Source: Echinarachnius parma
Taxonomy: Eukaryota > Echinodermata > Echinoidea > Clypeasteroida > Echinarachniidae
NCBI GenBank assembly: GCA_037951105.1
Contig: JBAMJV010001409.1
Span: forward strand, 1 to 64,000
Direction of reading: 5' to 3'
DNA: 64,000 nt
Position numbers and translations under genes: made by a program. Below the pieces are notes generated by a model. That model was not told the origin of the DNA. It did no database searches and worked only from the letters and a program-made list of their open reading frames with translations. Each line of letters starts with the position of its first letter. Within the stretch, counting starts at the first letter, position 1. Of this stretch, positions 15,212 through 64,000 are shown piece after piece.

Positions 15212-15225
15212 TGAACATGTGACTC

Positions 15226-41597: not shown

Positions 41598-42016
41598 TTA
41601 CTCCCTATCAAACTGCGGATTCAGCACCTCATAGTCAGACGAGTCAAAGAACTCTTCCAGATAAAGATGGCCCGGATCTCTGCGTGGGACTACGCCCGAT
41701 GGCACTCCCCCTCTTGTTCCTCCGCTTGCGTCGAATGCATCATTCCCATGCTCTAGAGAAGCAGGAGTCGCCGTTGAAAACACGGTTGGCCGCCCGTCGT
41801 CAGCACAGGCATCATGATGACCTTTTGGAGCAGGGACCTCACCTTGATAGCGACGGCGGGGACTACGCTCGTTACCTGCTGACATCGCTTCGCTATTCTC
41901 TCTGGAAGGAGGAGATGCGACAAGGCGCGAGTCGTTGGTGTCATGATCAGGTGTGTACTCAGAAGGAGCGCGGATGTCTGAAGACCTTGGCATACCTGAG
42001 GTTTCGTTGTTTCCGC
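41598..42016 (-). CDS. Receptor gene 1, distal tail exon (YLEEFFDSSDYEVL)
   Basis: The frame is open from a good acceptor (CTCTCTTTGCAG before 42016, read on the minus strand) to a stop at 41598. It contains AGGNNETSGMPRSSDIRAPS, an Asp/Ser/Pro-rich middle and the end RRDPGHLYLEEFFDSSDYEV. The final block is conserved in gene 3 (GHLYLEEFFDSSDYELL) and, decayed, in genes 2 and 4. The acceptor phase (two bases completing a codon) agrees with acceptor-like sites in genes 2 and 4. It is therefore probably an alternative or additional cytoplasmic tail spliced to the upstream gene. The donor is not identified. Confidence 0.6.
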
Positions 42017-42237
42017 CTGCAAAGAGAGCTGCTGCTTTGCTCCCACTCGAAAACGTACGACATGAGTGCTAAATATCGGTCATCAGAGAATTCGGAAACT
42101 GTTAAGCGTAGAAGAGCATTTAACATTTCACCGTCACTTAATCCATCGCCTTCATGACCGTACAATATTCGTGAAAATGACATACTGACATTTGATTGAC
42201 ATTGTATCATGTAAACATTGTTTCTTTAAAGAGTCCA

Positions 42238-43698
42238 TTAATTTGAATATTGAGCATCTATTGGCAAAAGCCCAATGCAAGCTGTGTCCTTTCCCATGGT
42301 TGGTCTGAGCTCATCGTAGTCAGAATCGTTGATATTTCCATAAGAGAAAGTGGACAGGTTCTTCTTGACATTTCCATGTTGCTTATTCGTTTTCTTCTCT
42401 GGCTTGGCATACAGGGCACTCAAGATATCATCATCGTCAGTATGGCACTCTACTGATATTTCATCGACGGTTGAAATCGGTAGGTTATGCGAAATCTCAT
42501 GACGTGTGGTCAAAAGGCCGGTGACTTCATTACGTTTGTAATCATCTACCGTGCTGTACGTGTTCTCATTCTGTAGACCTCCACTGTCAGCACCAAGTGT
42601 GGCAACATCAACTCCAACTGAACTCATTTGTCCATTAACCTGGCCAATCTGAGAGTGTTTTCCAGGTGCAATGGATGCTAGATTAAAGCTGGCCCCGCTT
42701 TCTTCATAAGGCGAGCAGTCATCTAATTGCGAGTGTCCCATGTCAGAAGTGCCTAGGCACGGTCTTGGGGGCAAATCTGGGGCCTGGTGGTCAGGTGACC
42801 TTGACAAATTTACTCGAGCTTCATTCCCACGATTATCTCCCGACTGATCATTGGTTGCAGAAAGAACGTTGGTGCTTGGAAAAGATGTATGTGTCAGCTG
42901 TTGTGCCATGGCGGTTATTACATTGATGTTGTCTGTTGTATTTGATCGTGTTAGGGCAACTGAAAGGTCCTGATGGTTGATGTTTAGTCTTTCATTTTTT
43001 CTACGGACTAAAACAATGCACAACATCGCCACAGATAAAATCAAGATAGTGATTATAAAAGCTATGTCCCTGGTATTCATTGTTTCTATATCATTACTCC
43101 CGGCCGATAGAGTAACCGTACATGTTTTTCTTGAAGACTGAGGTGGTACGGTAGTCGATGACAGGTCGGAAATGGTAGGAGCAGTAAGTATTGTTACGTC
43201 GGTCTTATGTCCTGTAGTTTGAGAAACACTTGCCGGTGTTTTAGAGGACACGTTGTTACTAGCTGTGCTATTTGGCACGTTTTGGCTTGTAGTCTCTGGT
43301 CCTGTAAGATTTAACGCGAGGTGTATGTCAATAGGATCGAAAGAAATGTAGTATTCAGCGTAATCAGCTTTTTGCAGAGGAGCTTTGATATTTAAGGAGA
43401 AACATCTCAGCCCACAAAGTTCAAATGTCAAATGTTTATCTTCTATCACCGCTGAACACCATGTGTAACACGAACTCGGATTGCAGCCTAGTTGGGAAAC
43501 ACATTTCCCTATAGTTCCGTCGTCAGATCGAGTAAAATTGATTCCATCGGATGCCTTCAAGTATGTATCCATCATACACTGTACACTGACAACAGTTCCG
43601 TTCGTTTCAAGTTCAGGATGTCTCTTGCAAACAAACGAAAACGTCAAACATGGCTGAGTCACGAGAAACAGTGACAATAGTGCCAACAATACACCCAT
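42238..43698 (-). CDS. Receptor gene 1 (type A): Ig-like 8-Cys type I membrane protein
   Basis: This is an intact frame of 486 residues. A signal peptide (1-21) precedes a compact ectodomain with cysteines at 24, 41, 66, 72, 77, 81, 95 and 99. VSVQC resembles an Ig B strand, and FSLNIKAPLQKADYAEYY resembles Ig E-F strands, but the F-strand cysteine is absent. A Ser/Thr-rich stalk (134-205) and a membrane helix (211-231, followed by RRK) come next. The cytoplasmic tail has PDLPPR at 307-312 (PxxPxR, an SH3 ligand) and tyrosines at Y331 (YEES), Y381 (YSTV), Y430 (YAKP, the YxxP class), Y453 (YGNI) and Y461 (YDEL). Several N-glycosylation sites are in the ectodomain. It is not assigned to a named family. 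An adhesion or immune signalling role is inferred from the design. Genes 2-4 are paralogues on the same strand. Confidence 0.8.
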   Translation of the reverse strand: MGVLLALLSLFLVTQPCLTFSFVCKRHPELETNGTVVSVQCMMDTYLKASDGINFTRSDDGTIGKCVSQLGCNPSSCYTWCSAVIEDKHLTFELCGLRCFSLNIKAPLQKADYAEYYISFDPIDIHLALNLTGPETTSQNVPNSTASNNVSSKTPASVSQTTGHKTDVTILTAPTISDLSSTTVPPQSSRKTCTVTLSAGSNDIETMNTRDIAFIITILILSVAMLCIVLVRRKNERLNINHQDLSVALTRSNTTDNINVITAMAQQLTHTSFPSTNVLSATNDQSGDNRGNEARVNLSRSPDHQAPDLPPRPCLGTSDMGHSQLDDCSPYEESGASFNLASIAPGKHSQIGQVNGQMSSVGVDVATLGADSGGLQNENTYSTVDDYKRNEVTGLLTTRHEISHNLPISTVDEISVECHTDDDDILSALYAKPEKKTNKQHGNVKKNLSTFSYGNINDSDYDELRPTMGKDTACIGLLPIDAQYSN

Positions 43699-44552
43699 CT
43701 TGCATCTAACCCTAGGTCGCTTCTTTCCTTGAACTTGATGTAAAATTTGTCGGAGTAGACTATAACCATCAGCGCGGAGGTATCAATAGCGTACTTGCTT
43801 AGCTTTGTGGGCGACTGTAAAAGAGACGAATGGGGAAGTGCAAAAATAATTATTAAAAAGTATGTATATAAGCTTATTGCTGGGACAGGTTTGTTATGTA
43901 GAAGTAAACGTATGGTTTCCTCTTTAGAACGTAAGTCAACGAATCTACTTCAGTCCGTGATTCATTTGTTTCACTTTCATTGACTTGAAAACAACAATAG
44001 TGTGTGACCGTTTTTAAGTATCTCCCTTTTTAATGTATATTTTTTTCAAATTGGCACTTAAACTTTGTGATGATTTAATGTGACTGATGGGCTTCATCTT
44101 CAAAGAGGTTTTTTACATTTCGGTTTCGGACTTTAAGAGTCATGGACGTGAACTTGTTGCGAAAGCCTTGTTCAAAAGTGTGTATTTCTAAAAACATGTA
44201 ATTTAAAAAATACATTATAAAGTACTGCTATGTGTTTTCTTAAATTTTCATTAATCTTTATTTGACCTGTCCATACGGAGACAGACATAATTTTTTTTTC
44301 CGCTACAATTCACAGACATGTAATGTAAATATTATCATGATTGTGAAGATATTCCAATCTTAAATACAATTACTGACCAAATATTATCATGGCATTAGTT
44401 CTGACCACTAGTTTGACCTTAACTACAGCTTGGTTTTGAAATATGAAACCCCAGCTGCTCAGTCACAGTTGTGGTGCACTCGAGCAAGTACAACAATCAG
44501 CGGCTCGCATTGCCCTATGTGACAACAGAAGAAAATCATCAACTTCAGTCCT
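43699..44552. other. 5' flank of receptor gene 1
   Basis: No gene is seen. Short blocks such as GTGTGACCGTTTTTAAGTAT at about 44001-44021 recur upstream of gene 2 (54670-54684), so the flanks are duplicated along with the genes. Confidence 0.5.
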
Positions 44553-44599
44553 GGGCCCCGTTGCAGAAAGAGATACAATCGATTGTAAGTTGTGATTAA

Positions 44600-44813
44600 T
44601 CGTTGAACCCCCGTAAGTGATGTCTTTTTGCTAAGGGGGGTTTGAACCAATGACGATGCGGAGCGTCGTCCACGAGCCGCGAAGCGGCGATTTTGTTGTT
44701 GCCATTTTGACCCCCCGTAAGTGATGTTTTCCACATCACAAATTTAACTTGGCAGCCCAAGGGGAGGGGTTTAAACCCCCTAAACCCCCCCCCCCCCCGT
44801 AGATCCGCCACTG
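44600..44813. mobile_element. Dispersed element with GTAAGTGATGTTTTCC and GTAGATCCGCCACTG
   Basis: ACCCCCGTAAGTGATG occurs twice (about 44609 and 44714) and the unit ends CCCCGTAGATCCGCCACTG. It is related to 9250-9362. Long C run at 44788-44799. Non-coding. Confidence 0.6.
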
Positions 44814-45469
44814 CGAAGGAGCGAAGCGACTGAGCGGGGGGTGGGGTGGGAGGGGGGTGTCCCCCCTCTCACGGTAGGGAGCTTTTGCATCTGGTCCATA
44901 CATGTACCTGGAAAGGAAATTCTGACTTGACGACATTTAGTATAATGTGCGTTGTCCGGGGGGGGGGGGGGGGGGGGGGAGAGAAGGGGTACTAAGATTA
45001 TAGTCGGACGGGGTTGTGCGGCTGAGACATCCCAACCCTTACCCACATCCAAGGGTCCTTTTGCTGTAAATAGGTACTCATGTGTATGGATTTTTTTTGA
45101 AAAATGGACCCATGTCTAAGGATTTTTTGTGAAAAATGGACCCATGTCTGATGATTTCGAACTTTAAATATTACTTTTTTTAGCTGTAATATAATACAAT
45201 GGCCAATCATTTTGCATTTTTTGGATACATTTTTGTATTATTAGTGAACTGTACCATACTACAGGGGCAGCGCCAGGGTATTTTCCTAGGGAGGGCGAAA
45301 GTGTAAACAATTGAGGGTGCGAAGCGACCGAGTGGGGGGACGGCAATTTTTACACTAGAATGGAGCTATCTAGTGCATATCGGAGGTGAAATTCTCAATT
45401 TTTCAAATGATTGAAAACAGTGAATAGTCTTCAATTATGATGCGGTAATTTGCATAAATATTAATAATG

Positions 45470-48050
45470 CGAGCGAGCGGAGCGAGCTTAAATATTGTTG
45501 CAATTTCACAGCAAAAAATTGCCATTTGTTTCAATATTATTGTATGGGTATATTCGTTTTTATTACTTATGATATGGCGTTATGAAGGGTAATATATAAA
45601 CACTCGAGGTTGTGAAATATCATTTATGCGAGCGAGCGGAGCGAGCTTGAAATTTTTAGCAATTTCACATCGGAACATTTTTTGTTCCAATATTAATGTA
45701 TAGGTATCTTCGTTTTTACAATATGGCGTTATGAAGGGTAACATATAAACACCCGAGGTTGTGAAATATTTTAAAACGGCTCTGGTAATTTCAGTAATGT
45801 GATTGGTTAAATACAGTCACGTGACTATTCATTACATTTCAACAAACAAACAAGAAAAAGCGTAACACATGTGTGTTGTCACTTTTTGTTGCGCGATATT
45901 TGCACGGCTGTGACGTCACAATGCTTGTTTACACAGTTCTACGAAGACAAACTTGCGAAAGTGAAGGAAAAAAAGATGTAAAATGCTTCGTTTTGTAAAT
46001 TATCTGTTCTGTAGTAATTCAATCGTAGCAGTTTCGTAAATGATATGGTATGTGGTTTGATATTGGTAAGTTTTGGAATGGAAATGCATACAATTCTTTG
46101 ATAATTCTCACTTTTAATGGGAAAATCTTCGGCAATTTCCCATCAACTGAATGTGATCTGCAGAGTCAAATTCAGTGCAGCGAGTGCAGTAAGTGTTGAT
46201 GATTTTTGTAAATTCCTAATAAGTTCACATTCTAGACTGTAGAGAGTAGATCTGGGTAGTCTGGGTTACTAATTTTGGCATGTCTGATTTCAATAATCCA
46301 GCAAAATAAAACAATCCGTGGTTGAGCTCGTTTTATAAAACAAATAATACCTCGGTCTTGTTATCGTGCGTCATGTAAATTCATCGCACTCTCGGGCTAT
46401 GTTAGCTGTGCTTTGCGCACTCGGCTTACGCCTCGTGTACAACACACAGCTAACATAGTCCTCGCGCGCGATGCATTAACACAACACACTCTAGACCGTG
46501 TATTATTTGTATATCATGTATGCGAGCGAGCGGAGCGAGCTTAAAAATTGTTGCAATTTCACAGCAAAAAATTGCCATTTGTTTCAATATTATTGTATGG
46601 GTATATTCGTTTTTATTACTTATGATATGGCGTTATGAAGGGTAATATATAAACACTCGAGGTTGTGAAATATCATTTATGCGAGCGAGCGGAGCGAGCT
46701 TGAAATTTTTAGCAATTTCACATCGGAACATTTTTTGTTCCAATATTAATGTATAGGTATCTTCGTTTTTACAATATGGCGTTATGAAGGGTAACATATA
46801 AACACCCGAGGTTGTGAAATATTTTAAAACGGCTCTGGTAATTTCAGTAATGTGATTGGTTAAATACAGTCACGTGACTATTCATTAAATTTCAACAAAC
46901 AAACAAGAAAAAGCGTAACACATGTGTGTTGTCACTTTTTGTTGCGCGATATTTGCACGGCTGTGACGTCACAATGCTTGTTTACACAGTTCTACGAAGA
47001 CAAACTTGCGAAAGTGAAGGAAAAAAAGATGTAAAATGCTTCGTTTTGTAAATTATCTGTTCTGTAGTAATTCAATCGTAGCAGTTTCGTAAATGATATG
47101 GTATGTGGTTTGATATTGGTAAGTTTTGGAATGGAAATGCATACAATTCTTTGATAATTCTCACTTTTAATGGGAAAATCTTCGGCAATTTCCCATCAAC
47201 TGAATGTGATCTGCAGAGTCAAATTCAGTGCAGCGAGTGCAGTAAGTGTTGATGATTTTTGTAAATTCCTAATAAGTTCACATTCTAGAGAGTAGATCTG
47301 GGTAGTCTGGGTTACTAATTTTGGCATGTCTGATTTCAATAATCCAGCAAAATAAAACAATCCGTGGTTGAGCTCGTTTTATAAAACAAATAATACCTCG
47401 GTCTTGTTATCGTGCGTCATGTAAATTCATCGCACTCTCGGGCTATGTTAGCTGTGCTTTGCGCACTCGGCTTACGCCTCGTGTACAACACACAGCTAAC
47501 ATAGCCCTCGCGCGCGATGCATTTACACAACACACTCTAGACCGTGTATTATTTGTATATCATGTATGCGAGCGAGCGGAGCGAGCTTGAAAACTTTAGC
47601 AATTTCACAGCGGAAATTGTCATTTGTTTCAATATTGTATGGGTATATTCGTTTTATTACTTATGATATGGCGTTATATAACACCCGAGGTTGTGAAATA
47701 TCATGTATGCGAGCGAGCGGAGCGAGCTTGAACATTTTAGCAATTTCACATCGGAAAATTGTCGTTTGTTTCAATATTGTATAGGTATATTCGTTTTATT
47801 ACTTATGATATGGCGTTATATAACACCCGAGGTTGTGAAATATCATGTATGCGAGCGAGCGGAGCGAGCTTGAAATTTTTAGCAATTTCACATCGGAACA
47901 TTTTTTGTTCCAATATTATTGTATAGGTATCTTCGTTTTTACAATATGGCGTTATGAAGGGTAACATATAAACACCCGAGGTTGTGAAATATCATGTATG
48001 CGAGCGAGCGGAGCGAGCTTGAAAATTTTAGCAATTTCACATCGGCAAAT
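45470..48050 (+). repeat. Higher-order tandem repeat, ~1050 bp and ~140-160 bp periods
   Basis: The GCGAGCGAGCGGAGCGAGCTT box starts a unit of 137-161 bp that recurs at about 45470, 45631, 46521, 46681, 47571, 47708, 47850 and 48000. Above this, the stretch 45470-46520 is repeated almost exactly at 46521-47570, and the same 1050 bp step leads to 47571. Each unit contains AATTTCACA, ATATGGCGTTAT and GAGGTTGTGAAATAT. Each large repeat also contains a hairpin with CTATGTTAGCTGTG arms (46399-46460 and 47443-47504). No coding region. Confidence 0.9.
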
Positions 48051-48752
48051 CCCAAAATCCCGGAACAATGAGGGAGAAAAGAGGGGAAAGGAATAAATGA
48101 AAAAAGGGACCCATGTCTAAGGATTTTTAAAATGAAAATGGGACCCATGTCTAAGGATCTTTCTTGTAAAAGTCACCCTTTCCAGCGGCACATCCCCATA
48201 TACCCAATATACGTGAGTACCCCCCGCCCCCGAGGTGCGTTAGTGCGTCATCGTCGTCATGATTCTTAACCAGAAGAGGTTATGATTGATTCGTGAAGAC
48301 AAACTAAAATGCACCCCCAAAATAATATTCGCAAAGTGACATATTCAGTTCAAACAGTGCATCAAAAGCATTATTTTATGACAAAACAGGAACATTGTAT
48401 TCCAGATGTATACAAGACAGATTCCCGAGGGAGCGAAACGATAACCGAGAGGGGGAAGGGTGATGGGAGGGTGTGATGGTAGGTGGGTGCACGGTAAAGG
48501 TGCTTTTGCAATGTTTTAATTGAAATTATGCAATCTGGTGCATACTTGGGAAGGAAATTTGACTTGACATGAAGTAAGATCTGAGTTTTATTGTCTAAAG
48601 AAATACTCTTTTCTTTCAATCACTTTGATCGAATTAGATAAAAGCCATGATTTGAATTTATTTGGGGGGTCAAGCGCCCCCTCATGACCCCCCACCAGTA
48701 CGCCAGTGATCGTAACTAACAATCGATTGTATCTCTTTCTGCAGCGGGGCCC

Positions 48753-49360
48753 TGGTATATCTACCTGTGGATGGGACTTGCCTACGCAACCACATACGTC
48801 TTATTCAATGTACTCGTTTATTTAAGATACGCAACCAACACCATACCCACCAGCAGTCAGTCGAGCAGATTATTATGGAACCTATGACCATGACCTGGAG
48901 TATGCGATACCCAGATCTACAATTAGATTCCTACAAAATACTCCATCATACTAAGAACCGTACGTATCAACGTTCTGGCTTCATTGAGACAGGCTGCCCA
49001 ATCGGTCATCAGAACAATACATCCTATTCCAGGATCAATTCTTCTACAAAATGGATCCATCATTTTACTTGCATTATTCACTTGAATCCATTCCTACCCA
49101 TTCAAAGCACCCAATTACTACACCTGGGTTTACATGGTTGAGAGCAGCAAATGTGGACAAACGTGTGGCAGCTGGGAATCAAACCCAAGACTTTGTATAA
49201 CTAAAGATTGAACTAACATGCCCGCAATTGCTTTTACATGTAATGCACACAAAAATACACATTTACGGAATGATTTTGACAGATATCCCTTGATTAAATT
49301 AGCCCTTGACACTTGGACACTTATATCTGCCACACCGGCGTTTCAAATATGCATGTTATG
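48753..49360. other. Unassigned; open frame without recognised homology
   Basis: An open frame of 124 residues (48767-49141, plus) contains many His, Gln, Ile and Thr but no recognisable domain or codon bias. I do not call it a gene. Confidence 0.4.
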
Positions 49361-51900
49361 CTCTTCCTTTCAGAAGCTTAGTCCCCGACGCGATTTATAA
49401 GTTGCGATTTCGTGCTAATGTCTTTATGGAAATCATGACAATGTATTTCTGTAATTTTCTTCATTTACAGTCATTACCTTTTCCATACATTTTGTGATGG
49501 TCTGTTTTGTTGTTTTATTGGTTTCCACTTAAACATCTTTGCTTGATTTATATTTAGGTATTGGTTTCATGTTTTACATGATCGTTAAAATAACATATCT
49601 TGAGTATGTTTTTCAATTTAACGATGTTTAAATATAAAGCAGTTTGTTCGGGTTGTTGATGAACAAAATGTTTTAGGATCCATCATTTTAACAATTTATC
49701 ATCCACATTATTTCGTAATTCATTGGAAAAAAATATAAGCAGGTTATATAAGTGTTATTCATTTGTTTTTTCATTTAATTATGTTTTGTATTAATTAATT
49801 GTTGAAATGTAATGTTAACATTAAACAAAACATGTACGTGCACTCAAAAAGGCTTGTAAAGAAATTAATAAGCAGAAGAACAAAGATAAACCTTTTGGTA
49901 TAATCATTTTAATTGAATGCGCTAAAGATAGGATGGTGAGAACATACAGTTGCTACATACAGTGATAGTCAATGTTACTTTTCAAAAAGGTTGATGTACA
50001 AAATATACATCCCTTAAGTAATTTTTATTTAAATAATTGTAGTATCCACAATTTTAACAATTTATCAATCACATTGTCTTTTTTGCTCTTGTTATTCATT
50101 TGCAGATATATCAGCAGGTTATGAAAGTGCTATACATTTGTTTGTGTATTCAATTATGTTTTATATTTGTATAATTGTTTTAAATGTAACTTTACACGTT
50201 TTAAAAATGCACGTACGTCCACACAAACAGGCTTGAAAATAGGCAGAGGAACACAAAATAACACTTGTTGGTATAATAAATGTAACTTTGTGCTCTAAAA
50301 TAGAATGGGGAGAACATAAAGTTGGTATACCCGGTAATAACCAGTAAGTTTTCCAAAAGATGTAGGTACAATATACATTACATATCCCTTTATTCATCAA
50401 ATATGTACATGCCATCTTTTTATGTTTAATTAATCCTAATAATATGCAATACATCAACATTAATTCAAATGAACTGTCAGACCATGAAAGTACATACACT
50501 ATTATATGATTAAAGACATTTAAATTAAACCTGGTAATATTTAGGTGTGATCGACACTGATTTCATTACAAGTTCATCCCCGTCAAGTTTGTTGTTACTT
50601 GAATAGACTCCTCACCCTTCAAAAGAAAGCTATCAGCCTTTGTTGTAATGCAGAATATCGATCTCACTCACCACCCCTTTTTAAATAGTTATATAGTTTG
50701 AATTTGTCTGAAAACATACGACTAAAAACCGCTCTTTTTGTATTTGAACGGTCAGTTGCCTACGTGCTTTACATGATTATTTACTTTTAATACAATGGGA
50801 CACATGCAAACAAGGCAACGTGATGATTTAAAGACAGCATTCTGTCGATTAACATTAACTCAAAGTAATTCAATAAGATATAAAGGGATTAAGTTATGGA
50901 ACTCACTAGATGTTAGGATAAAGTTAGCTAAATTGCCAAAACATTTTAAAACAGTATATAAAAGTTTTTTTCTCCATTTGTATAGTAATTCATGACATAA
51001 TCGCTTTGTGTGCCAGATGTGATTGTATTATAGTTGTGCACTTGCTTTGCAATAATTGTTATTTTGTTTTGCTTTCATTTTATGGTAAAATGTTTAAATT
51101 ACATTGTTACCTTTATGCTACTCAGTATTTGTTTACCTGGGTTGGGTTGGGTTTGGGATTAGAGCTAGGATTAGGATTATGTTAGTGTTCAATGATGCAA
51201 TCGTTCGCTGTAGTTTTATAAATGTAACAATTTTAGGGGAATACCCAATTGTACAAGCCATGGCTTCTTAGGTGTATTCCCTGATCACATTTATATTTGT
51301 ATATATAGTGTATTGTTTTATGTTTTTAATAAATTAATAAATGAAATAAAAGAAATGAAAAAGCTATTGTAAGATCTCTAGCTATAACAAAAGTATTGTA
51401 TTTAAATATTCATTCTTTCATCTGCCTTTCTGTATGTTTTACATGATTAGTCTGTATTGGCAGATCTATTTAAACATATTCAATACATCTATTAAAACTG
51501 TATCCATTTAAAATATTCATTTTATTTGATCCGAACAAATTGGCAACAAAAGTATACAAACATAAGCATGATTATAGTAAAGGAGTCACCTCATTTTCAA
51601 AATGCAAGTGTTCGGTACATGTCAAATTACGTCGATCAATATTCATGAAATTGCGATGGAATAACCATGATTATAAAGATATGTCGAGGAGTAACATGCA
51701 ATGGTGATGTAAACGTATTAATCAGTGACCAAAACTTGTCTATCAAGTGTGCATGACAGACAATATTATATCTTAACGTATTATTTGCAAGGCTTTTTTC
51801 ATACAATTAGAGGAATCATTAACTCAAGAGCGCTTTAATTGCACACAAGTCGAACAGTGTAACCCTATAACCATTGAAAATAGAGATATTCCTTGATTAA
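49361..51900. repeat. Intergenic segment duplicated at ~59410-61800
   Basis: Blocks in the same order and orientation recur 10 kb to the right: GCTTAGTCCCCGACGC against CTGTAGTCCCCGACTC, TTGGTTTCCACTT, AAGCAGAAGAAC, GGTATAAT(C/A)ATTTTAATTGAATGC, AATGTTACTTTTCA, CCTTTTCAAAATGCA and GTAACATGCAATGG. A local second copy of part of it starts at about 50200. This supports duplication of a block that includes a receptor gene pair. Confidence 0.65.
50560..50998 (+). pseudogene. 3' fragment of a LINE reverse transcriptase
   Basis: In several frames the stretch reads like the C-terminus of a non-LTR reverse transcriptase: LTLQKKAIS, CCNAEYRSHS, then in one open frame NSIRYKGIKLWNSLDVRIKL and a final FKTVYKSFFLHLYSNS. 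Stops and frame changes separate the pieces. The (AATA)n-like end near 51330 may be its tail. Clade not determinable; not the same as the LINE at 10.8-15.2 kb. Confidence 0.55.
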
Positions 51901-52439: not shown

Positions 52440-53010
52440 CAATCTTATAGTCATGATAGTCAGATATAAGTGAAAGAAGTCATCCAGGTAAACTTGGCCC
52501 AGATCTCTGTTTGATTCTTCAACTGGCACTCTATTCTGCCTGCAGCAGTTGTAACGACACATTTTGATTTAAATTTGTGTAGATGTGTGCGGAACATATC
52601 AGTTATGGGCCCCGTTGCAGAAAGTGATACAATCGATTGTAAGTCAGAATTTCAACCAATCAGATTTGCGCATTTAGATTTCATCTCATTCTGCAACGGG
52701 GCCATTGAATCAATAAGAAGATTTGTCGAGTGGAAACTACTATTGCTTCTTGGAGGGCAAAATAGTATACACAAATCGATGGAAGTTGCTTTAATCGAAG
52801 TTGATAAAGCTTCGAAGCTCTTTCCAGTCTTCGATAAATGGAGACATTTTGGAATTTGCGTGATAACTTTTAAAGAAATTAGAAGGAGTGGTATTGATCT
52901 AAAGTTCGCATGCCTTTGCGAGTGCAGTGCTTCTATCTGGGTGGAATTATAGTGGTGGGCTCTCAGCCGATATTGTAGGATGGAAGTACTAGAATTCGGT
53001 CATGAACACA
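52440..53010 (-). pseudogene. Receptor gene 2, decayed distal tail exon
   Basis: After an acceptor-like AAGCTAG near 53025 the frame reads FMTEF, stop, YFHPTISAESPPL, matching SMTDYEYFYPTIS of gene 4 and FMTDFQDFYPTMS of gene 3. The end reads NRDLGQVYLDDFFHLYL, matching RRDPGHLYLEEFFDSSDY. The middle has stops and a 97 bp MITE (52607-52703). This copy cannot give a full tail. Confidence 0.6.
52607..52703. mobile_element. 97 bp MITE inserted in the tail of receptor gene 2
   Basis: The ends are GGGCCCCGTTGCAGAAAG and the inverse CATTCTGCAACGGGGCC. ATACAATCGATTGTAAGT after the left end matches the left end at 44553. It lies inside the tail exon remnant. Confidence 0.8.
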
Positions 53011-53055
53011 GTCGATGTTCCTAGCTTAAAAATTACTTTATTGTTGTCATACCTT

Positions 53056-54333
53056 TTAATTTATCTTCGGAAGGATTTCGAGAATTTGTCTCAATAGTAA
53101 AAGGATTTGATTGATTTCAATTGTCATATATAGTAAACATATACCGACATGGTATTCATGCAGCATGTCTGAAGTTAAGCAGCGACCAAGTATGGGCAGT
53201 GTCACAATGTCAGCTGTTTCTTGTGTAATGTTGTATGCAGATGGATCAGCGTTATAAGAGTAACTCAGTGGGATTTCATCTGGAACTTCATGTGGCTGCA
53301 CTATCTTTGTCTCCTCCTTGATTGCCACTAGGTTGAAGCTGGTCCCGATCTCCTCATAACGCTTAAAATCATCTAGTGGCGATTGTTCAGTATTTAAAGT
53401 ACCACGCCGTCCTCTGGGAGGCAGCTCTGGTGTCCGGTGGAGTGACAGTGCCAACTTCGGAAGTTGTGCATTCCTACGTTCAACTCCCGAATGATCCCCG
53501 TTGACAGGAAGGGCACTGACACTTGGGAAAGCTGAAATGGTCGGCTTTGGTGTCACATAAGCCATATCTGTTGCCTTCTTTGTATTTGATTGTATGGTAC
53601 ATCGTCTGGCCAGCCGTTGATTCCGGTTGTTAATGCCCAGCCTTGCACTTCGGGTACGATAGGGATGCCGTCGCACTAGAAGATACAGCCCCGATACGAT
53701 GCTGCACATAAGTGCCACAGATAGTGTTAGGCTTCTGATTATGAAAACCATGTCATTGGTGGTCATTACTTGTCCGCAAGAACTCTCGACCAATGGTTGG
53801 ACTTTACATGTTTCTTGAGAGGAAGCAGTAGAAACAATAGGTTGTGTTTGAGAAACACTTGCTGGTGTTTTTGAGGACCCGGCGTCATCACTAATCATGT
53901 TGGTTGACACTTCTCGGCTTGTAGTCTCTGATTCTGTATGGTTTAATGCGAGGTATCTCTTACTAGGATCGATATATATGTAGTATTCTCCGTAATCTGT
54001 TTCTTGCAGAGGAGCTTTGATACTGAAGGAGAAACATTTCAGTCCACATAGTTCGAATGCAAAATGATTTGTATGTTTCTCTTTGAGGTTACAAAACATG
54101 TAACAACTACTCGGATTGCAGCCTAATTGGGAAAAACAATTTCCTATAGTTTCGTCTTCACTTCGTGTTAAATTGATTCTATCAAATACCTTCAAGTATT
54201 CATCCACAATACAGTGTACACTGACAAGAGCTCCGTCCGTTTCGAGTACATGATGTCTTTTGCAATCAAAAGACAACGACAAACTTGGCTGGATCATAGG
54301 AAATAGTGATAATACTGCCATCAGTTTATCCAT
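53056..54333 (-). CDS. Receptor gene 2 (type B): Ig-like 8-Cys type I membrane protein
   Basis: A frame of 425 residues. A signal peptide (1-21) is followed by the eight-cysteine ectodomain (24, 41, 66, 72, 77, 81, 96, 100) with the E-F-like segment APLQETDYGEYYIYID. A Ser/Thr stalk and a membrane helix (about 195-219) come next; the helix contains an arginine (VFIIRSLTLSVAL) that gene 1 lacks. The cytoplasmic tail has PELPPR (PxxPxR) and RYEEIGTSFNLVAIKEE, in which YEEI is the preferred Src-family SH2 ligand. The tail differs from type A genes by lacking the YSTV, YAKP and YGNI/YDEL motifs. Similarity to gene 4 ends near the residues MLHEYHVG, and the last 30 residues are hydrophobic and probably read-through into an intron (CATGTCG/GTATATG is a possible donor near 53140). 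Confidence 0.75.
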   Translation of the reverse strand: MDKLMAVLSLFPMIQPSLSLSFDCKRHHVLETDGALVSVHCIVDEYLKVFDRINLTRSEDETIGNCFSQLGCNPSSCYMFCNLKEKHTNHFAFELCGLKCFSFSIKAPLQETDYGEYYIYIDPSKRYLALNHTESETTSREVSTNMISDDAGSSKTPASVSQTQPIVSTASSQETCKVQPLVESSCGQVMTTNDMVFIIRSLTLSVALMCSIVSGLYLLVRRHPYRTRSARLGINNRNQRLARRCTIQSNTKKATDMAYVTPKPTISAFPSVSALPVNGDHSGVERRNAQLPKLALSLHRTPELPPRGRRGTLNTEQSPLDDFKRYEEIGTSFNLVAIKEETKIVQPHEVPDEIPLSYSYNADPSAYNITQETADIVTLPILGRCLTSDMLHEYHVGICLLYMTIEINQILLLLRQILEILPKIN

Positions 54334-55371
54334 CTTGTTAAACAGTGTACTTGATCGTGTTTTTTCTTGAACGATATGTAATAGAGGAAATATCCTTTGA
54401 GTTTAAAATTGTCTAATGAGATGTCTTATTGCAGAAATGCCTTTAAAGTCGTACAGCTTACTAGCCAAGCCTGGTCGGTGAATGCATCATAAATGAATAG
54501 GGAAGTGGAAAACTGCACTTTAGGTCTGTCCATGCTACATCGGTATGTTTTGCTTGTCATCATGGTCATATAGGCGGACATGTATGTTCTCCCGATGCAA
54601 AAATGAGTATACTTCAGTCCGTTATTTTTTGAGTTAACTTCCATTATACATTCAATAACAACAGTTTGTGGCCGTTTTTAAGTATGCACTTATGGATGTT
54701 GATATTATGGGCAATTATGTGAGGATTTGATATGTTTCATTTGGTTTCTCTTTCATTTTTGGTTGTTGTTATTTCTCATCTTTTCGATTTCATATCTTAA
54801 TTGATCAGCATAATTATCTTGCAGTATTCCTAAATTGCGCCTGTATATTTCTTTCACATATTTATATAACGTAAATAGAGGAGACTTTTATTCTCGATAC
54901 CGTTAACAGTCATGTAAAGTAACCATAGCAAATATATATCTAGTACACCATATAGGTTTTTCAATATATGTTCAAACTAAACACAACAGGAAAATAATCC
55001 CTCAAAAATTTCCTCATAATTTCCTAAGCAAGAACGTTTTAAAACATGTGCATTGATAGACAAATGTATAATGTATGTATTGCGTTACGAAAATGTGGTT
55101 GATGAACAATGCAGTTTCAAATTTACAAATTCTCAATGAACTGACATTACTAAAGTTATATTACTTTTGCGAATTTTTGATACCGGCTACTTTGTCTGTT
55201 ATGCATGCAAGTTGTGCTCAATCAACCATGCAATAATGGATACCTATACGTTACGTTACTACTATTAATTGGTCTAAAAAATCCTTAGAAACTTGTTGCT
55301 CATAAAATTATTAGGAATTAGTAGGAGGCACTTTTGGTGCATGGTTTATGTTCATTCATTTTCATAAATCG

Positions 55372-55507: not shown

Positions 55508-55553
55508 TTTGTTTCGCAACAAATAAGTCTGTCCTTATAATGTTATATTCAGT

Positions 55554-57165: not shown

Positions 57166-57663
57166 CTATTCCTGATACATTTGTGGCCTAAGCAGCTCGT
57201 AGTCAGAAGAGTCAAAGAACTCTTCCAGGTAAAGATGGCCCTGATCTCTGCGGGGGACTACGCCCGATGGCACTCTTCCGCTTGCTTCGCCGCTTGCCTC
57301 CAATGGAACTGTCACCTGCTCTATGGAATCATGAGTAGCAGATGGAAACAAGGTCGGCTGCCCGACGTCAGTATTGATGCCATCACTTCTAGGAGGAGAG
57401 ATTTCATCTGCATAGCGACGGGGGAGACTGTAGCCAGAACTTCCTGAAAAGACGCCGTCATTCTCCCCAAGCTCTGAAGCAATGAGACGCATAGCGCCGG
57501 TCGGGTAGTCATCCCTCATATCAGTTGGAACGCGGGTAACTCCAAGTTCTGGTGGATAAGTGGCCTCTGCGCCTGTGTCTGCGATGAACGCTGCTGCTGT
57601 GTTTCCATACGACATCGTAGGATAGAAGTCTTGAAAGTCGGTCATGAAAGTATTTAACATTAT
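57166..57663 (-). CDS. Receptor gene 3, distal tail exon
   Basis: An open frame contains NTFMTDFQDFYPTMSYGNTA, then AAAFIADTGAEATYPPEL, a variable middle and VPSGVVPRRDQGHLYLEEFF with the end DSSDYELLRPQMYQE. It is the best preserved version of this tail: 160-170 residues, acidic, with repeated Asp/Tyr motifs. Alignment to gene 1 is clear at both ends. Since gene 1 ends in its own stop upstream, the tail is probably joined by splicing, perhaps as an alternative form. The donor is not identified, and the acceptor AG at the position used by genes 2 and 4 is not clear here. Confidence 0.55.
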   Translation of the reverse strand: MMLNTFMTDFQDFYPTMSYGNTAAAFIADTGAEATYPPELGVTRVPTDMRDDYPTGAMRLIASELGENDGVFSGSSGYSLPRRYADEISPPRSDGINTDVGQPTLFPSATHDSIEQVTVPLEASGEASGRVPSGVVPRRDQGHLYLEEFFDSSDYELLRPQMYQE

Positions 57664-57798
57664 TAGCTTAAGATGTGCATTATACACTTACGAATATCGA
57701 CATGATCAACACATGCCTAGTGTATCATATTTTCGACAGTTAAACATGACAATTTGTTGGCATGTGGCCATGGATACATTTCTTTCTCATGATGTATT

Positions 57799-59204
57799 TC
57801 ATGTCCATAGTTGACCAACTATTTGCCAAAGCACAATGCAAACATTTCCCGAGTTCGGTCTAAGATCATCGTAGTCAGAATCGCCGGCATGTAAAGCGCT
57901 CATTATTGAACTTCTGACGGTGCATTTTCCTTCCCTTCTCTGGTTTGGCGTACAAGGCACTGAGGATATCATCATCGACTGCATTGCAGTCTACCGATAG
58001 GTCCTCGACGGATGGAGTTGGTATGTTATGACCACTTATAGCCACCTGTCCGTTCACTTCGTTTCGTTTGCAATCATCCACCGTGCAGTACGTATTCTCA
58101 TTCTGACCCTGGTCTGCACCAAGTACAGAATCATCAATCACTTGAGAGTGATTTCCGCGTACAGTGGGCAGTGGATTAAAGTTGGCCCCACTTTCTTCAT
58201 AAGGCGTGCAATCGTCCTCTGGTCTCATGTCAGCAGTGCCATGGCACGGCCTTGGAGGCAACTCCGGGGCCTCATGATGAAGTGACCACGACAGGTTTAC
58301 CTGATGATCATTCCCATATCCACCTTCCGAATGATCACCGGTAACAGAAAGAGCGTTAACACTTTGAAAAGATGAAAGTGCCGGCTGTCGTGGCATATAG
58401 ATCATATCGATGCCATCTGTTGTGTTTGATCGTGACAGGGCAACTGAATGGTTCTGATGGTTCATGTTTAGTCTTTCATTTCGTCTACGCGATAAAACAG
58501 TGCACAAGGTTGCCACAGATAATATCAAGATAGTGGTTATGAAAACTACGTCCCGGGGTGTTATAAGTTGTCCGACTGAACTTCCATTTGATGTTTGGAC
58601 CGTAAGTGTTACTTGTGCGGATTGAGACTGTATCGAGTCCGATGCCTGCACAGTGGATTGTGTTTTTTCACTCTTACGTCCTGCAGTTACAGAAAGTTTG
58701 ATCTGAATCACCTGTCGTTGAGGCTTCGGAGGTCGCATCGTAATGGTCGTGATGATAGACGATTGTTCTCGGTGACGTTTCTTGACTGATAGTTTCTGGT
58801 TTTACTAGGTTAAATGCGCGGTATATGCTAGCAGGATGGACTACAATCGTGTACTGACCGTAATCAATTTCTTGCAGAGGACCTTTGATTCTAAAGGAAA
58901 AACATTTCAGACCACATAGCTGAAGCGAAAAATGAGGTGTTTGTTCACTCTCAATTATACACCAAATAGAGCTGCAAAATGTCGCGCCGCAAACGCCGTG
59001 GGAACCGCACTTCCCAATCGTCGTATTATCAGATCGAATCAATTCGAATGTATCGGCTGCTGTCCAGTAGTTATTCGTGGTGCAATGAACGCTTACATTC
59101 GTTCCATTCACTTCTAGTTCACTATGTCTCTCACAATCAACTGTTAAGAAATAGCAGGGCTGGGCGAAAAGAAGCAATGACACTATGGTTAATAGGACAG
59201 CCAT
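57799..59204 (-). pseudogene. Receptor gene 3 (type A), with two frame changes
   Basis: The ATG at 59204 starts a signal peptide and an ectodomain with all eight cysteines and LQEIDYGQYTIVV at the F-strand position. Near 58700 the frame changes inside the stalk (...STTGDSDQT against SVTAGRKSE). It then stays open through the membrane helix (VVFITTILILSVATLCTVL, then SRRRNERLNMNHQ) and the tail, with PELPPR, YEESGANFN, NENTYCTVDD and LSALYAKPEK. A second change near 57910 precedes DSDYDDLRP. Sequence is close to gene 1, so it is type A. It is either a young pseudogene or a gene with two indel errors in the assembly. Confidence 0.75.
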
Positions 59205-59720
59205 GTTGCATCTCGTTACTTCTTTGAGTTAAAACGTTGAAGATATTCCGTGCAAGAATTGCAATTACTAGTCTAAGTTTAACAGAGCGCTGTCTTGAAT
59301 CTGCTTGCTAAAGTATTATCGACGAACATTGAATGAACTCATTGAAATTTTCAAAATGATCTAGACGTGTACTTATAAAGAGTCAAGACTGGCGTGTCAA
59401 GTACACAGAAATATATGCGCTTCCCTTCAGAAACTGTAGTCCCCGACTCTCCTTCAATATGTGATTTATTACTTGCACTTTCATGCTCATGTGTCCATGC
59501 AAAATACAACAATGTAATCCGTTAATTATCTTTATTAATATCCTTTACCTCCTTTCATAAATTCTTTTATGGTTTGATTTGTTTCTGATTGGTTTCCACT
59601 TCAATCATCCTTGATTTATACATTGATATTGGTTTCATTTTTTACAGGATCGTCAACATAATTATCCTGACCATATTAATGATGTTAGTTTGTTCGTGTT
59701 TTTTTGTATCAAGAACTTTA
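59205..59720. other. 5' flank of receptor gene 3; start of the duplicated segment
   Basis: No gene is seen. From about 59410 the sequence matches the region starting at about 49365, marking the duplicated intergenic block. Confidence 0.55.
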
Positions 59721-60302
59721 TTGAAAGGGACAGTTGAGTTCTGGTAAAGAGAGTACAGTTTTGGTCAAACTGAATTTTAGTAAGCAAAACCTGCACCATA
59801 ACATTACAAACTAATAGTTATAAATCCACCATGCTCGAAAGGAATACAAAATTACAAATAACTAAGTAAAAAGCCTGTTATCATTCAAAAAGAGCCATTC
59901 AAACTCCAGAGGGCGTTATCTGAACACACATCGGTTTCAACCATTTTGAATAAAATATTGTGCATGTCATGTTATGTTATGTTGAAATGATGATTAGATA
60001 GATAGATTATCTACAACTATTTAAAAAACACTTCTTTTTTCTCTTTTTTTTAAAGAGGAAGCATTTTTTTAAAATGTAACAGCTGGTTCAAAATTGTCGA
60101 ATAATTGTGGGGCCCCACATTTGTTACGAATGGTTATATTTATGGATATTTCAGCAATTTCTGAACCGATTTTGATCAAATAAAGTGTATTCTGTCATTA
60201 AAATTGTATGGTCTTTGGAATTTGACACTCAGTTTTTCATTTTCTCACAAAAAAATTATTTTGAGTAGCGCCCTCTATACCAATACTCAACTATCCCTTT
60301 AA
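59721..60302. mobile_element. TTAA MITE family 1, copy 5
   Basis: The ends AAAGGGACAGTTGAGTTCTGG and ACCAATACTCAACTATCCCTTTAA enclose the family interior (CCACCATGCTCGAAAGG). The left TTAA is degenerate (TTGA). The right TTAA (60299-60302) is shared with the next element. It is absent from the paralogous segment near 49.7 kb, so it inserted after the duplication or was lost there. Confidence 0.8.
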
Positions 60303-60789
60303 AGATGAATACCAGTTTTGGGAAAGTAGCCGAAAACATCTATCATGTCTATGTTGATCATTATTGTTGAATAAGTAATGAAATAGGGCTTGTGTGGTAA
60401 AATCCGAACCTAAGCATCGTTAAATACAGACAAATCGGAAGAAATCCAATATCCGCCTGTGAAATTTATAAATCTACCGCCCGTTCGGACCTGTCCGCGC
60501 CGCTAACGCTGGGGGAGATATCGACGAGCTGGGGACAAGCCCGTATAGCGAACACCTGTACTCGCACGTGGTCATTGTACGTAGCGTATGGGAGATTCCA
60601 CTTTGGCGATATCTATCCGCAGACGATCAATTTATAATTTTGCAAATATATCAATTAGTAGGCGGTTTCTTGGAAAAATATTTATCATCCCGTATTAGTC
60701 AAAACATATTCTTTCACATGATTGGTAATAAGAGCTTCCATTTCATTTTTTTATAGGGGGGCGTTTCCAAAACTGGCATTCATCTTTAA
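60299..60789. mobile_element. TTAA MITE family 2, copy 3 (full)
   Basis: TTAA at 60299-60302 and 60786-60789 enclose TIRs AAGATGAATACCAGTTTTGG and CCAAAACTGGCATTCATCTT. The interior has the family blocks GGGAAAGTAGCCGAAAAC and CCGAACCTAAGCATCG. This is the best-preserved copy and defines the family ends. Confidence 0.85.
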
Positions 60790-62469
60790 GCGTCCGTCAT
60801 TTAAAAAATGTATCATCCACATTTTATATTTTGCTTTCGTTATTCTCTGGCAATAATATAAGCAGGTTTTTGAACGTGTTATTATTTCGTTTGTGCACTC
60901 ACTTATGTTTTATATTTGTATACATTGTGTTTAACTTAATTTGAAACGATTTAAAAAACATGAACGTACACACAGAACATGCGTTCAAGTAATCTAATAA
61001 GCAGAAGAACGATGATAAACCATTTGGTATAATAATTTTAATTGAATGCTCTAAATATAGGATAGTGGGTACATAATAGTTGACTACATACTGTAATAAG
61101 CAATGTTACTTTTCATAAAGGTTGATTATTATATGATAATATCCCTTAATTATTAAAATATGTACAGCGCAATTGTATACGTACTCCATCTTTAATCGAT
61201 CATAATAATTCGCATTATCTAACCCAATTCAAATACAAATGTCAGACCATAACAATACAAATAATATTAAACTCATTTAAATAAAACATTGGACTACTCG
61301 GATTGAATCTGATTTCGTACAAAGTTAGGCCTCGTCAACCTCTAATTACGTAGGTGTACGAAAGTGTGTTTGCTTCAACTGCCTTCCGGTATAATGGCGT
61401 TAAATCATTCATGTGTATTGACAGAACTATTAAAACATATGTTAAAGATTCGTATGTTTGTTTGGAACCAATTGCCAACAAATGTTTAAACAAGTTACCA
61501 GTAAAATCAAATCAAAAGCAATTGCCTACATCATTTTCAATTAAAGGTCTATTTAGTACGGGTGTCATCTCCTTTTCAAAATGCAGGTTGGACAATGACG
61601 TTGATCAATATTGCGATTTGCGATCAATTAACCAATATCATAAGGATAGGTGGAAGAATAACATGCAATGGAGATGTAAACTATACGTTTATACATCGAC
61701 GAGTATAAATCCTAAATGACTTTAACGGGAACACATTAAATAATTTTCTGTAAACTAAATATTGGTGGCTAAAACTTGTCGTAAATTATAGAAAATGATT
61801 ATATTATGTTTAACTCGCAGAAGATATACATATATTTGAACGTCTCATTTACGATACTGTTTTCATTCAAATAAAACACAAATTAAGATAACAGGGCGTA
61901 AATCATTCAAGAGTTGAACAGTGTTACAATATGACTATATACAAATATGCTATGGTTATATGGCCATATGGCTATGCTAGGTTTATATACAAAATAACAC
62001 TTGTGCTTACAATATAATTTAGTGCCGAAATTGACATAATAGCTAACTTGAGATTACATATTTTTTCCACAAAAAAATTACATTAACAAATTACTGTTCA
62101 AAGAAGGCCCTTTTCTGTCTAATCGTTTTTAACTGGAACTCAACCAAATGATGAGAATGGTGCATATTAAGATCGCACATCATTTTGATGCTACAGCAGT
62201 TCATTGTCTTAGCTCCCGCGTCGTGCGATGCATGAGGCGACCATCACTCTCCGACTGGATCGGTCAGCAGTTATTGTGCTGATGTCGTTCGTATTCCTGA
62301 GGCTGCCCTAGAGGTCCTGTTGGATGTTTTGTGGCCAGTTCATTTGGGCCGACTCGTTTGTCTTCTACCAGGGGAAGTCCACCAAAGAGTTTGGTTCGCC
62401 ATATGGTCAGGGGGAGGCTTGCTTGTTCATAGTCGGACTAATACAAATTATATCATGCATTAACTTGAC
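60790..62469. other. Continuation of the duplicated intergenic segment, no gene
   Basis: Similarity to about 49830-51800 continues to about 61800. Beyond that, 62150-62430 is GC-richer and unassigned. No convincing exon is seen. Confidence 0.5.
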
Positions 62470-62529
62470 CAGGCTCTCTGACCACTCTCTTTGACCATGC
62501 TCTCTGCCCAAGATCATCTACATTTAGGT

Positions 62530-62795
62530 TTCAAATCTTACAGTAATCCATATCTATACGCAGCTTCAGCAGCTCATAGTGGGATAAGTCAAATACGTCA
62601 TCCAGGTAAACTAGGCCCAGATATCTGTCCATGGTATCAGGTAGCTCTCGTCCATCTTAGGTTACCTTTAAATCGTGACAGCTCGGGAATCCTCTACTAC
62701 TCCTTATCCATGAGCGACTTCATCAAATCATAGGTAGACGAGTCATATAGGTCACCGGGGTAAATTTGGCCTATATCTTTCTTTTAGACTTGAAC
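62530..62795 (-). pseudogene. Receptor gene 4, two tail-end motifs in tandem
   Basis: Read on the minus strand, KKDIGQIYPGDLYDSSTYDL (about 62775-62710) ends at a stop after MDKE. Some 90 bases further, DRYLGLVYLDDVFDLSHYEL (about 62635-62560) appears. Both align to RRDQGHLYLEEFFDSSDYEL of gene 3, so the last block of the tail exon is duplicated here. Stops precede both copies. Confidence 0.55.
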
Positions 62796-63064
62796 AGAAT
62801 CTCCCCTGCCAGCAACGGTTGCACCGACCATCTTGAGATTAATTTCGTAATATTAATATGTTATATAATTAGCTTACAGCCATATACGACACGGGCTACC
62901 CTGTGCAATATTGAACCGGATCAATGCGTAACTGGTACGATTGAGCTATCTGTAAGGTTCTCGAAACATATCAGTCATGGAGCCAATGGAATTGCAAATA
63001 ATTTGAAAAGACAATAAACTACACACATTTATATATAGCTGTAGCCGTATCTCGATGACAGCGG

Positions 63065-63276
63065 CTCTAACAATTTCACAGACTATGATAATGTGAGACC
63101 CTTGATGTCTGTAGGATAGTTATTATTGATATCAAAAGGAACGATGACGACTGAAACTTCGTGCGTCTTTGCTGGTGCAGTGCCTCTGTCTGTGATGAAT
63201 TATACTTGTGGGCTCCCATCCGATATCGTAGGATAAAAGTACTCATAATCGGTCATGGATACGGTCAATGCTTCTA
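63065..63276 (-). pseudogene. Receptor gene 4, start of distal tail exon
   Basis: After an acceptor-like TTTAGCCTAG the frame reads EALTVSMTDYEYFYPTISDG and stops soon after SPQV; past the stop TDRGTAPAKTHEVSVVIVP still resembles the gene 3 tail in position. Its phase equals that of the matching site in gene 2. Broken by at least one in-frame stop. Confidence 0.55.
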
Positions 63277-63536
63277 GGCTAAACAGTACATTAAAGGGCA
63301 TCAAGCGTGGGGATGCTACATAGCGGGTCGCCATTTTGAACTGGGTTAGTTTGCGCGCACCGCATGACACTGAGCTAACGTGCATTACGCACCGTGCGCA
63401 ACGCGTATGCAAGATGGCGCCGCGCATCTCATTTGACGAATCTGAACTACCTTTAACCATGTTAACATTAATGTTTAATACATTTAACTTATCTGCGCAA
63501 GATACAAATATCTAATCTGAATAGGATTCATTTCTA
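63277..63536. other. Probable intron of receptor gene 4
   Basis: It lies between the cytoplasmic frame and the tail-exon start. 63290-63440 is GC-richer with several GCGCA words and has no similarity to the matching interval of gene 2, so it may be an insertion. Confidence 0.4.
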
Positions 63537-64000
63537 TTACAGATATTCGCTTAGAACGAGTTTAACAATATGGTACTGATACACCAAATCTAAAGTAAAG
63601 TGATGACCAGGTATTAGCAACATTATAATGCACACAGTTTCTTTTCCCATTTTATTACAGGATCGATCAAGTTTAAAGGTGTAATTCAATGGTAAGTCAC
63701 GCGGATCATCCTGCGGCTGCATCATAACTTTCTTCTCCTTGATGGACACTATGTTAAAGCTAGTCCCGATCTCCTCATAAGGCCTGCAATCATCCAGTGG
63801 CGATTGGACAGTGTCGTCAGTGCCATGATGTGCTCTTGGAGGATGATCTGATGTCTGGTGAAGTGGCCGTGGCAGATGAGTATGTTGCACATTTCCACGA
63901 TATACTCCCGAAGGACCACTGCTGACTGTGGGAGCATGGACACTTGGAACAGATAACATGGTCGGCTGTGGTGTCACGGAAGCCGTGTCTGTTGCTTCTA
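63537..64000 (-). CDS. Receptor gene 4 (type B), partial, cytoplasmic region
   Basis: Only the cytoplasmic part is in the window; the frame is open through the right edge. It reads TPQPTMLSVPSVHAPTVSSG, then HQTSDHPPRAHHG (the PELPPR site of the others is changed), PYEEIGTSFNIVSIKEKK, and ends near YQYHIVKL. Similarity to gene 2 (TPKPTISAFPSVSAL, YEEIGTSFNLVAIKEE, HEYHVG) is higher than to genes 1 and 3, so this is type B. The N-terminal half must be sought beyond 64000. Confidence 0.7.
   Translation of the reverse strand, partial: EATDTASVTPQPTMLSVPSVHAPTVSSGPSGVYRGNVQHTHLPRPLHQTSDHPPRAHHGTDDTVQSPLDDCRPYEEIGTSFNIVSIKEKKVMMQPQDDPRDLPLNYTFKLDRSCNKMGKETVCIIMLLIPGHHFTLDLVYQYHIVKLVLSEYL

Follow-up and report, generated by a model that had tools for sequence, protein, structure and literature searches.

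The stretch analysed here, hereafter the window, comprises 64,000 nucleotides from Echinarachnius parma (assembly GCA_037951105.1, contig JBAMJV010001409.1). At 41.6-64.0 kb its minus strand carries an array of paralogues: three genes, plus a fourth of which only the tail is seen. A first-pass annotation had described four minus-strand paralogues within 22 kb; all four are found, gene 4 as a tail only, and the tail motifs it quoted are present. The main exon of gene 1 reads in a single open frame through a signal peptide, a probable immunoglobulin (Ig) V-like ectodomain, a Ser/Thr-rich stalk, a transmembrane segment (IAFIITILILSVAMLCIVL, hydropathy peak 3.15) and a long tail, and gene 2 repeats this layout of leader, ectodomain, stalk, transmembrane segment and tail. 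The frame of gene 3 is broken twice, once within the stalk and a second time shortly before the main exon ends. Genes 1 and 3 are of one type (A) and genes 2 and 4 of another (B), with these parts:

42241-43698, minus strand: main exon of gene 1 (A type), in the open reading frame (ORF) 43782-42238 with its ATG at 43698.
43297-43641, minus strand: ectodomain of gene 1, 115 amino acids (aa) with eight cysteines, from the three-gene alignment, an AlphaFold2 model and Foldseek.
41601-41705, minus strand: putative terminal coding segment of gene 1 (VPSGVV...SDYEVL...FDRE), resembling an immunoreceptor tyrosine-based inhibitory motif (ITIM), from constraint against gene 3.
53059-54333, minus strand: main exon of gene 2 (B type), in ORF 54402-53056 with its first ATG at 54333, from motifs and hydropathy.
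52440-52520, minus strand: decayed remnant of the gene 2 terminal segment, where the alignment shows an insertion and loss of frame.
58677-59204, minus strand: signal peptide, ectodomain and first part of the stalk of gene 3 (A type), in ORF 59228-58674 with its ATG at 59204.
57878-58801, minus strand: stalk, transmembrane segment and tail of gene 3 in a different frame (YCTV, YAKP), in ORF 58801-57875, from homology to gene 1.
57169-57273, minus strand: ITIM-like terminal coding segment of gene 3 (VPSGVV...SDYELL...MYQE), from constraint against gene 1.
63540-63998, minus strand: tail of gene 4 (B type) with YEEI, in ORF 63998-63537, the remainder of the gene lying past the window end.
62564-62771, minus strand: two tandem terminal segments of gene 4, SSTYDLM (62771-62700) and LSHYELL (62617-62564), from alignment and tblastn against genes 1 and 3 (E 0.003-0.07).

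The end of the gene 2 open frame (53059-53150) shows a second hydrophobic peak (VGICLLYMTIEINQILLLL, 1.92), which may be read-through into non-coding DNA and not real protein.

The tails sort the genes by type. A tree of all four separates genes 1 and 3 from genes 2 and 4 in 1000/1000 bootstraps, and this split is favoured by 22 informative tail sites, against 4 that join genes 1 and 2 and 5 that join genes 1 and 4. The spacers within the two A-B units also correspond, matching by blastn on the same strand and in the same order at three places.

49357-51714, no strand assigned: spacer between genes 1 and 2, collinear with that between genes 3 and 4.
59414-61681, no strand assigned: spacer between genes 3 and 4, collinear with that between genes 1 and 2.

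The corresponding blocks are 49357-49603 and 59414-59670, 49668-50504 and 60782-61269, and 51575-51714 and 61554-61681; the unit 1 side of the second pair (49668-50504) is itself a tandem repeat. The same order continues beyond the spacers through the terminal segments (52466-52510 and 62584-62628) and into the tails (53149-53579 and 63570-63999). Given the tail grouping and the collinear spacers, the array therefore arose by duplication of an A-B gene pair as a unit, as the first-pass annotation had proposed. Each spacer also holds additional sequence: in unit 1 a stretch at ~43.7-49.4 kb with tandem arrays of 142-159-bp units, and in unit 2 repeat-family sequence near 59.75-60.79 kb. At 45456-48050, upstream of gene 1, the unit 1 spacer holds three such tandem arrays (142-159-bp units) together with a 1.3-kb duplication whose copies are near-identical (95%).

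The alternating A-B-A-B pattern stands for the tails but not for the ectodomain. A tree joining genes 1 and 2 had been named in advance as evidence against the pattern; such a pairing appears in the ectodomain and not in the tail, because the genes are mosaics. Genes 1 and 2 share a tract with 77.6% identity by blastn, which begins at about the start codon and reaches into the upper stalk.

43217-43702, minus strand: gene 1 copy of the shared tract, a putative product of gene conversion with gene 2, from blastn and site patterns.
53846-54337, minus strand: gene 2 side of the shared tract, the putative donor, from blastn, synonymous divergence, site patterns and bootstraps.

Synonymous divergence (dS) in the ectodomain is 0.31 between genes 1 and 2, 0.82 between genes 1 and 3 and 1.09 between genes 2 and 3, whereas in the transmembrane segment and proximal tail the values are 1.01, 0.40 and 0.98, respectively. 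Codon bootstraps kept the ectodomain order in 1999/2000 replicates and the opposite tail order in 2000/2000. Genes 1 and 2 share 80% of nucleotides and 63% of aa in the ectodomain, compared with 60% and 39% in the transmembrane segment and proximal tail. A site-pattern scan was run on an alignment of three of the four genes (genes 1-3; 767 informative columns, 2000 permutations). The best segment joining genes 1 and 2 (gene 1 positions 43845-43465) and the best joining genes 1 and 3 (43049-42200) were each equalled in 0/2000 permutations, while no segment joining genes 2 and 3 stood out in this three-gene scan (488/2000). Gene 1 is closer to gene 2 up to the end of the blastn match at 43217 and joins gene 3 from 43049, so the switch lies between these positions, either within the stalk of gene 1 or just as its transmembrane segment begins.

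In 1964/2000 bootstraps genes 1 and 3 were further apart in ectodomain dS than in tail dS, which marks the ectodomain of gene 1 as the foreign-looking one. Since the ectodomain value is at the level of the A-B distance, copying of gene 2 sequence into gene 1 explains the data most simply. A conversion of ~0.5 kb from B to A would then have placed a B ectodomain on an A tail, a mechanism, direction and date that we infer from these distances.

The A and B tails differ and are constrained. Both A tails contain Y(S/C)TV and YAKP, followed downstream by the terminal VPSGVV...SDYE(V/L)L, and the main frame of gene 1 also contains SDYDEL near its end. B tails have YEEI where A has YEES, and do not contain the Y(S/C)TV...YAKP stretch. 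YEEI is a preferred motif of Src-family SH2 domains, and PxxPxR, an SH3-binding motif, occurs in the tails of genes 1, 2 and 3. SDYDEL and SDYEVL of gene 1 and SDYELL of gene 3 fit the ITIM consensus, I/V/L/SxYxxL/V (PMC12447643), as in the inhibitory members of paired receptors. At the outer edge of the transmembrane segment, gene 2 reads FIIRSLTL, with an arginine, where genes 1 and 3 have FIITILIL and FITTILIL. Gene 2 thus has a membrane-edge arginine but a long tail with YEEI; the transmembrane segment of gene 4 lies beyond the window. The copy number of terminal signalling segments varies within the B type, from two in tandem in gene 4 to one decayed copy in gene 2.

The first-pass annotation had called the ectodomain fast-evolving, a view that the ratio of nonsynonymous to synonymous divergence (dN/dS) does not bear out: the ectodomain values (0.39-0.70) and those of the transmembrane segment and proximal tail (0.41-0.63) have overlapping intervals in all three pairs. 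The ectodomain was the faster part in 1753 (genes 1 and 2), 498 (genes 1 and 3) and 887 (genes 2 and 3) of 2000 bootstraps. The proportion of synonymous differences exceeds that of nonsynonymous ones (pS > pN) when the gene 3 ectodomain is compared with that of gene 1 or gene 2 (Fisher p 0.0014 and 0.00015), and likewise in the distal part of the A tails (p 0.0048); between the ectodomains of genes 1 and 2, dN/dS is not significantly below 1 (p 0.14). The terminal segment gives a dN/dS of 0.23 between genes 1 and 3 (Fisher p 0.0072). The idea that 41598-42068 forms a single constrained exon was dropped, dN/dS being 1.09 at ~41706-41876 and 0.84 in the preceding stretch. For the stretch that holds HEYHVG/YQYHIV, previously listed as a kept motif, constraint was not significant (dN/dS 0.67, Fisher p 0.15). 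Positive selection was also considered and set aside, as no ectodomain or tail pair has a dN/dS above 1.

The cysteines of the ectodomain are kept, as had been claimed: all eight cysteine columns are invariant among genes 1-3, compared with 34 of the 105 other ungapped columns. The absence of a named family also held up, with no Pfam family above its cut-off for eight proteins and three ectodomains and no Protein Data Bank (PDB) entry below E 0.01 by sequence for gene 1 or the ectodomain profile. Several weaker matches were taken as chance: Viral_Beta_CD (Pfam) on the gene 1 transmembrane region (E 0.029, sub-threshold), three Mediator subunit 18 sequences (PDB) against gene 1 from stalk to tail (E 0.01-0.011), lipoprotein spr (PDB) against gene 1 (E 1.7), and short stretches of the IL-7 receptor alpha (E 0.32) and an antibody heavy chain (E 0.51) against the ectodomain profile. 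As expected for an animal gene, 0 of 41 pattern stretches in viral contigs and 0 of 18 in prokaryote genomes were confirmed as relatives.

Low-confidence AlphaFold2 models of the gene 1 and gene 2 ectodomains, both built from the same three sequences and without a shuffled control, have nine strands (mean predicted local distance difference test score, pLDDT, 59) and eight strands (pLDDT 60) in near-identical order. Foldseek returned best E values of 1.9e-4 and 3.3e-4 for the two models, with a TM-score of about 0.6, and the 50 matches listed of 1938 and of 1990 are, by title, nearly all antibody or nanobody complexes. V-type Ig domains canonically have a disulfide between the B and F strands and a tryptophan in the C strand. 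With landmarks placed by eye on the three ectodomains, a B-strand-like cysteine (Cys22) is invariant and the C-strand tryptophan position is Phe or Leu. The stretch LNIKAPLQKADYAEYYI we read, by eye against V-domain landmarks, as resembling the E-F region of a V domain in which the F-strand cysteine has become isoleucine. On this placement the ectodomains of genes 1-3 have neither the canonical V-domain disulfide nor its tryptophan, and with the F-strand cysteine replaced, the remaining cysteines would need to form different disulfides. On the predicted models, the ectodomain is probably Ig-V-like.

We read the array as tandem type I receptors with one divergent Ig-V-like domain, paired receptors resembling CD300A and CD300C, in which the A-B pair was duplicated and B-to-A conversion followed, and we give this reading a probability of roughly one half. 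Like known paired receptors, genes 1 and 2 are neighbours that combine near-alike ectodomains with different signalling tails. After duplication of the unit, the signal peptide, Ig-like domain and upper stalk (~0.5 kb) would have been copied from gene 2 to gene 1, and A and B would bind the same or similar ligands and signal differently. A tails, through SDYDEL and SDYE(V/L)L, would recruit SH2-domain phosphatases and be inhibitory. B tails, with YEEI of the Src-SH2 type and the membrane-edge arginine of gene 2, would be activating or dock Src kinases; they lack Y(S/C)TV...YAKP, and the terminal ITIM-like segment of gene 2 is no longer intact. An immune function would follow by analogy with known paired receptors, and immune expression would be predicted along with the shared ligand and the opposing tails. 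A more ambitious version, which we consider doubtful, is a non-vertebrate inhibitory/activating complex with a V-like domain and reworked eight-cysteine disulfides, duplicated as A-B pairs, in which repeated ectodomain copying tracks a common ligand.

Several observations weigh against the paired-receptor reading. No Pfam Ig family appears at E up to 10 in the eight proteins and three ectodomains, and the top sub-threshold match is FN3_7, a fibronectin III model that hits the gene 2 ectodomain with E 0.013 and 16.2 bits where the cut-off is 34.3, a match we took as chance. The pLDDT of the models is just 59-60, and in the last third of the gene 2 model, where the F and G strands are expected, it is mostly below 50; the F-strand cysteine position (DYxxYxI) is isoleucine in all three ectodomains. 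Gene 3, with its broken frame, is a possible pseudogene, and the ectodomain of gene 4 lies beyond the window end. Ectodomain dS between genes 1 and 2 is below tail dS between genes 1 and 3 in just 1572/2000 bootstraps, which only weakly supports an exchange younger than the unit duplication. The short tail motifs are candidate string matches, and gene 4 has no PxxPxR. The membrane-edge arginine occurs in one of three transmembrane segments and sits directly outside the best 19-residue hydrophobic window. Gene 2 has LLYMTI near the end of its ORF, which fits a looser ITIM pattern allowing I at +3, in a part without demonstrated constraint. Gene 4, a B gene, keeps two terminal segments, so segment loss does not define the B type. 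Splice modelling with donor and acceptor frequencies yielded no convincing donor common to genes 1 and 3. Weak phase-2 donors at YAKP score 3.4 and 3.3; speculatively, such a donor could be joined to a phase-2 acceptor placed by eye ahead of the terminal segment.

The main alternative is an ordinary lineage-specific Ig superfamily (IgSF) group, adhesive or neuronal/epithelial, evolving by birth and death, its mosaic structure the product of neutral conversion or unequal exchange. Gene conversion between tandem duplicates is common, the broken gene 3 and decayed gene 2 terminal segment are in the style of birth and death, and the genes themselves carry no immune marker, the Toll-like receptor (TLR)-like gene 37 kb away being itself broken. 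However, the shared tract runs from about the start codon to the stalk, exactly the ligand-side part, and the tails diverge in their tyrosine motifs yet remain constrained. We regard this alternative as a serious one, though somewhat improbable.

A second alternative concerns the exchange itself. The ectodomain of gene 3 could be the foreign one, acquired from a paralogue outside the window, with the likeness of genes 1 and 2 due to a separate exchange in either direction. Such a donor would be untraceable because the gene 4 ectodomain and any further copies lie outside the window. At dS 1.09, genes 2 and 3 are at least as far apart in the ectodomain as A and B are in the tail (about 1.0), and the 1572/2000 bootstraps leave the ectodomain dS of genes 1 and 2 not clearly below the tail dS of genes 1 and 3. 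This history needs two events, though, whereas one B-to-A event in gene 1 yields all three distances, and we think it unlikely. Less likely still, A and B could be co-expressed heterodimer partners and not antagonists, as proposed for Botryllus fester/FcoR. The A-B genes are adjacent and were duplicated as a pair, and Botryllus FF and FcoR genes are described as encoded and co-expressed in pairs (PMC12065747), but homogenised ectodomains would suit a common ligand better than complementary chains. That the array consists mostly of pseudogenes or recent relics (gene 3 broken, the gene 2 terminal segment out of frame and not intact, gene 4 cut) is very improbable, as the main frames of genes 1 and 2 are long and open and encode a hydrophobic leader and a transmembrane segment, and as pS exceeds pN in the distal A tail and in both ectodomain comparisons with gene 3, if not in that of gene 1 with gene 2 (p 0.14).

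Elsewhere in the window, bases 1-2184 form a perfect palindrome, 100% identical to its own reverse complement, that folds back the end of the TLR-like gene. Because the identity is perfect, this suggests a fold-back in assembly or library, or else a very recent inverted duplication. The TLR-like gene itself (1354-4049, minus strand) has leucine-rich repeats (Pfam LRR_8), with a TIR domain matched on the inverted copy at 328-831; it is split over at least four open frames and is thus probably a pseudogene or carries sequence errors. At 10879-15259 lies a non-long-terminal-repeat retrotransposon, broken up over several frames, in which both an endonuclease and a reverse transcriptase were matched. 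One or more dispersed repeat families, ~69-91% alike and in both orientations, occur at 27640-30000, 32055-32588, 34964-35431 and 59752-60787. The single Rfam match in the window is a tRNA (26159-26231, plus strand, 49.2 bits), possibly a tRNA-derived repeat; a 46-bp near copy of its start lies at 25918-25963.

Among known systems, the closest is primate CD300A/CD300C, in which gene conversion keeps single-IgV ectodomains alike while the tails diverge (PMC12447643). As described there, these are type I transmembrane proteins with a single IgV-like domain and a P/S/T-rich stalk, as in the array, and their tails differ likewise, CD300A having ITIMs and CD300C no signalling motif of its own (PMC12447643). 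The same source reports that the activating member, which signals via a charged transmembrane residue, has been pseudogenised or lost in several species (PMC12447643). Unlike CD300, to which Pfam and PDB sequence searches found no sequence relationship, the array domain has eight cysteines and no F-strand cysteine. The array B genes also keep a long tail with YEEI, and the charged residue, glutamate in CD300C as described, is arginine in gene 2; opposite signalling in the array would hold only by analogy.

Among invertebrates, Botryllus fester/FcoR are likewise IgSF receptors encoded as gene pairs (PMC12065747). FcoR tails are described as carrying an ITIM, a hemITAM (a form of immunoreceptor tyrosine-based activation motif, ITAM) or a core YxxI/L/V, with splicing able to swap the motif at two loci, and fester itself has no known signalling domain (PMC12065747). 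FcoR proteins have an IgV, a sushi and two C2 Ig domains in 520-610 aa (PMC12065747); the array genes do not have this domain set and have instead one ~115-aa Ig-like domain and a stalk. Compared by description only, Hydractinia Alr is an invertebrate complex with unusual V-set/I-set Ig domains and ITIM/ITAM-type motifs on candidate genes, but is cnidarian and linked to allorecognition (PMC12065747, PMC11999971). Salmonid NILTs, also compared by description only, are clustered and have one or two V-type Ig domains with ITIM or ITAM tails, but are vertebrate and carry the ITAM in their own tail (PMC3022915). Among the open-licence literature matches listed (titles and abstract starts), no description of this receptor family appears, which does not imply that it is unpublished.

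The suggestion of an undescribed system was overstated, because known paired receptors show both this architecture (one Ig-V-like domain, stalk, transmembrane segment, tyrosine-motif tail) and this pattern of conversion. Real and somewhat unusual, the array is a candidate for an invertebrate form of paired receptors, not a categorically new system. Comparing an ectodomain tree with a tail tree is a sequence-only test that can be used on other receptor arrays. Vertebrate innate immunity offers known cases of paired receptors with conversion-matched ectodomains and opposing tails; an invertebrate family with this genomic signature, if borne out, would suggest that such logic arose more than once or predates vertebrates.

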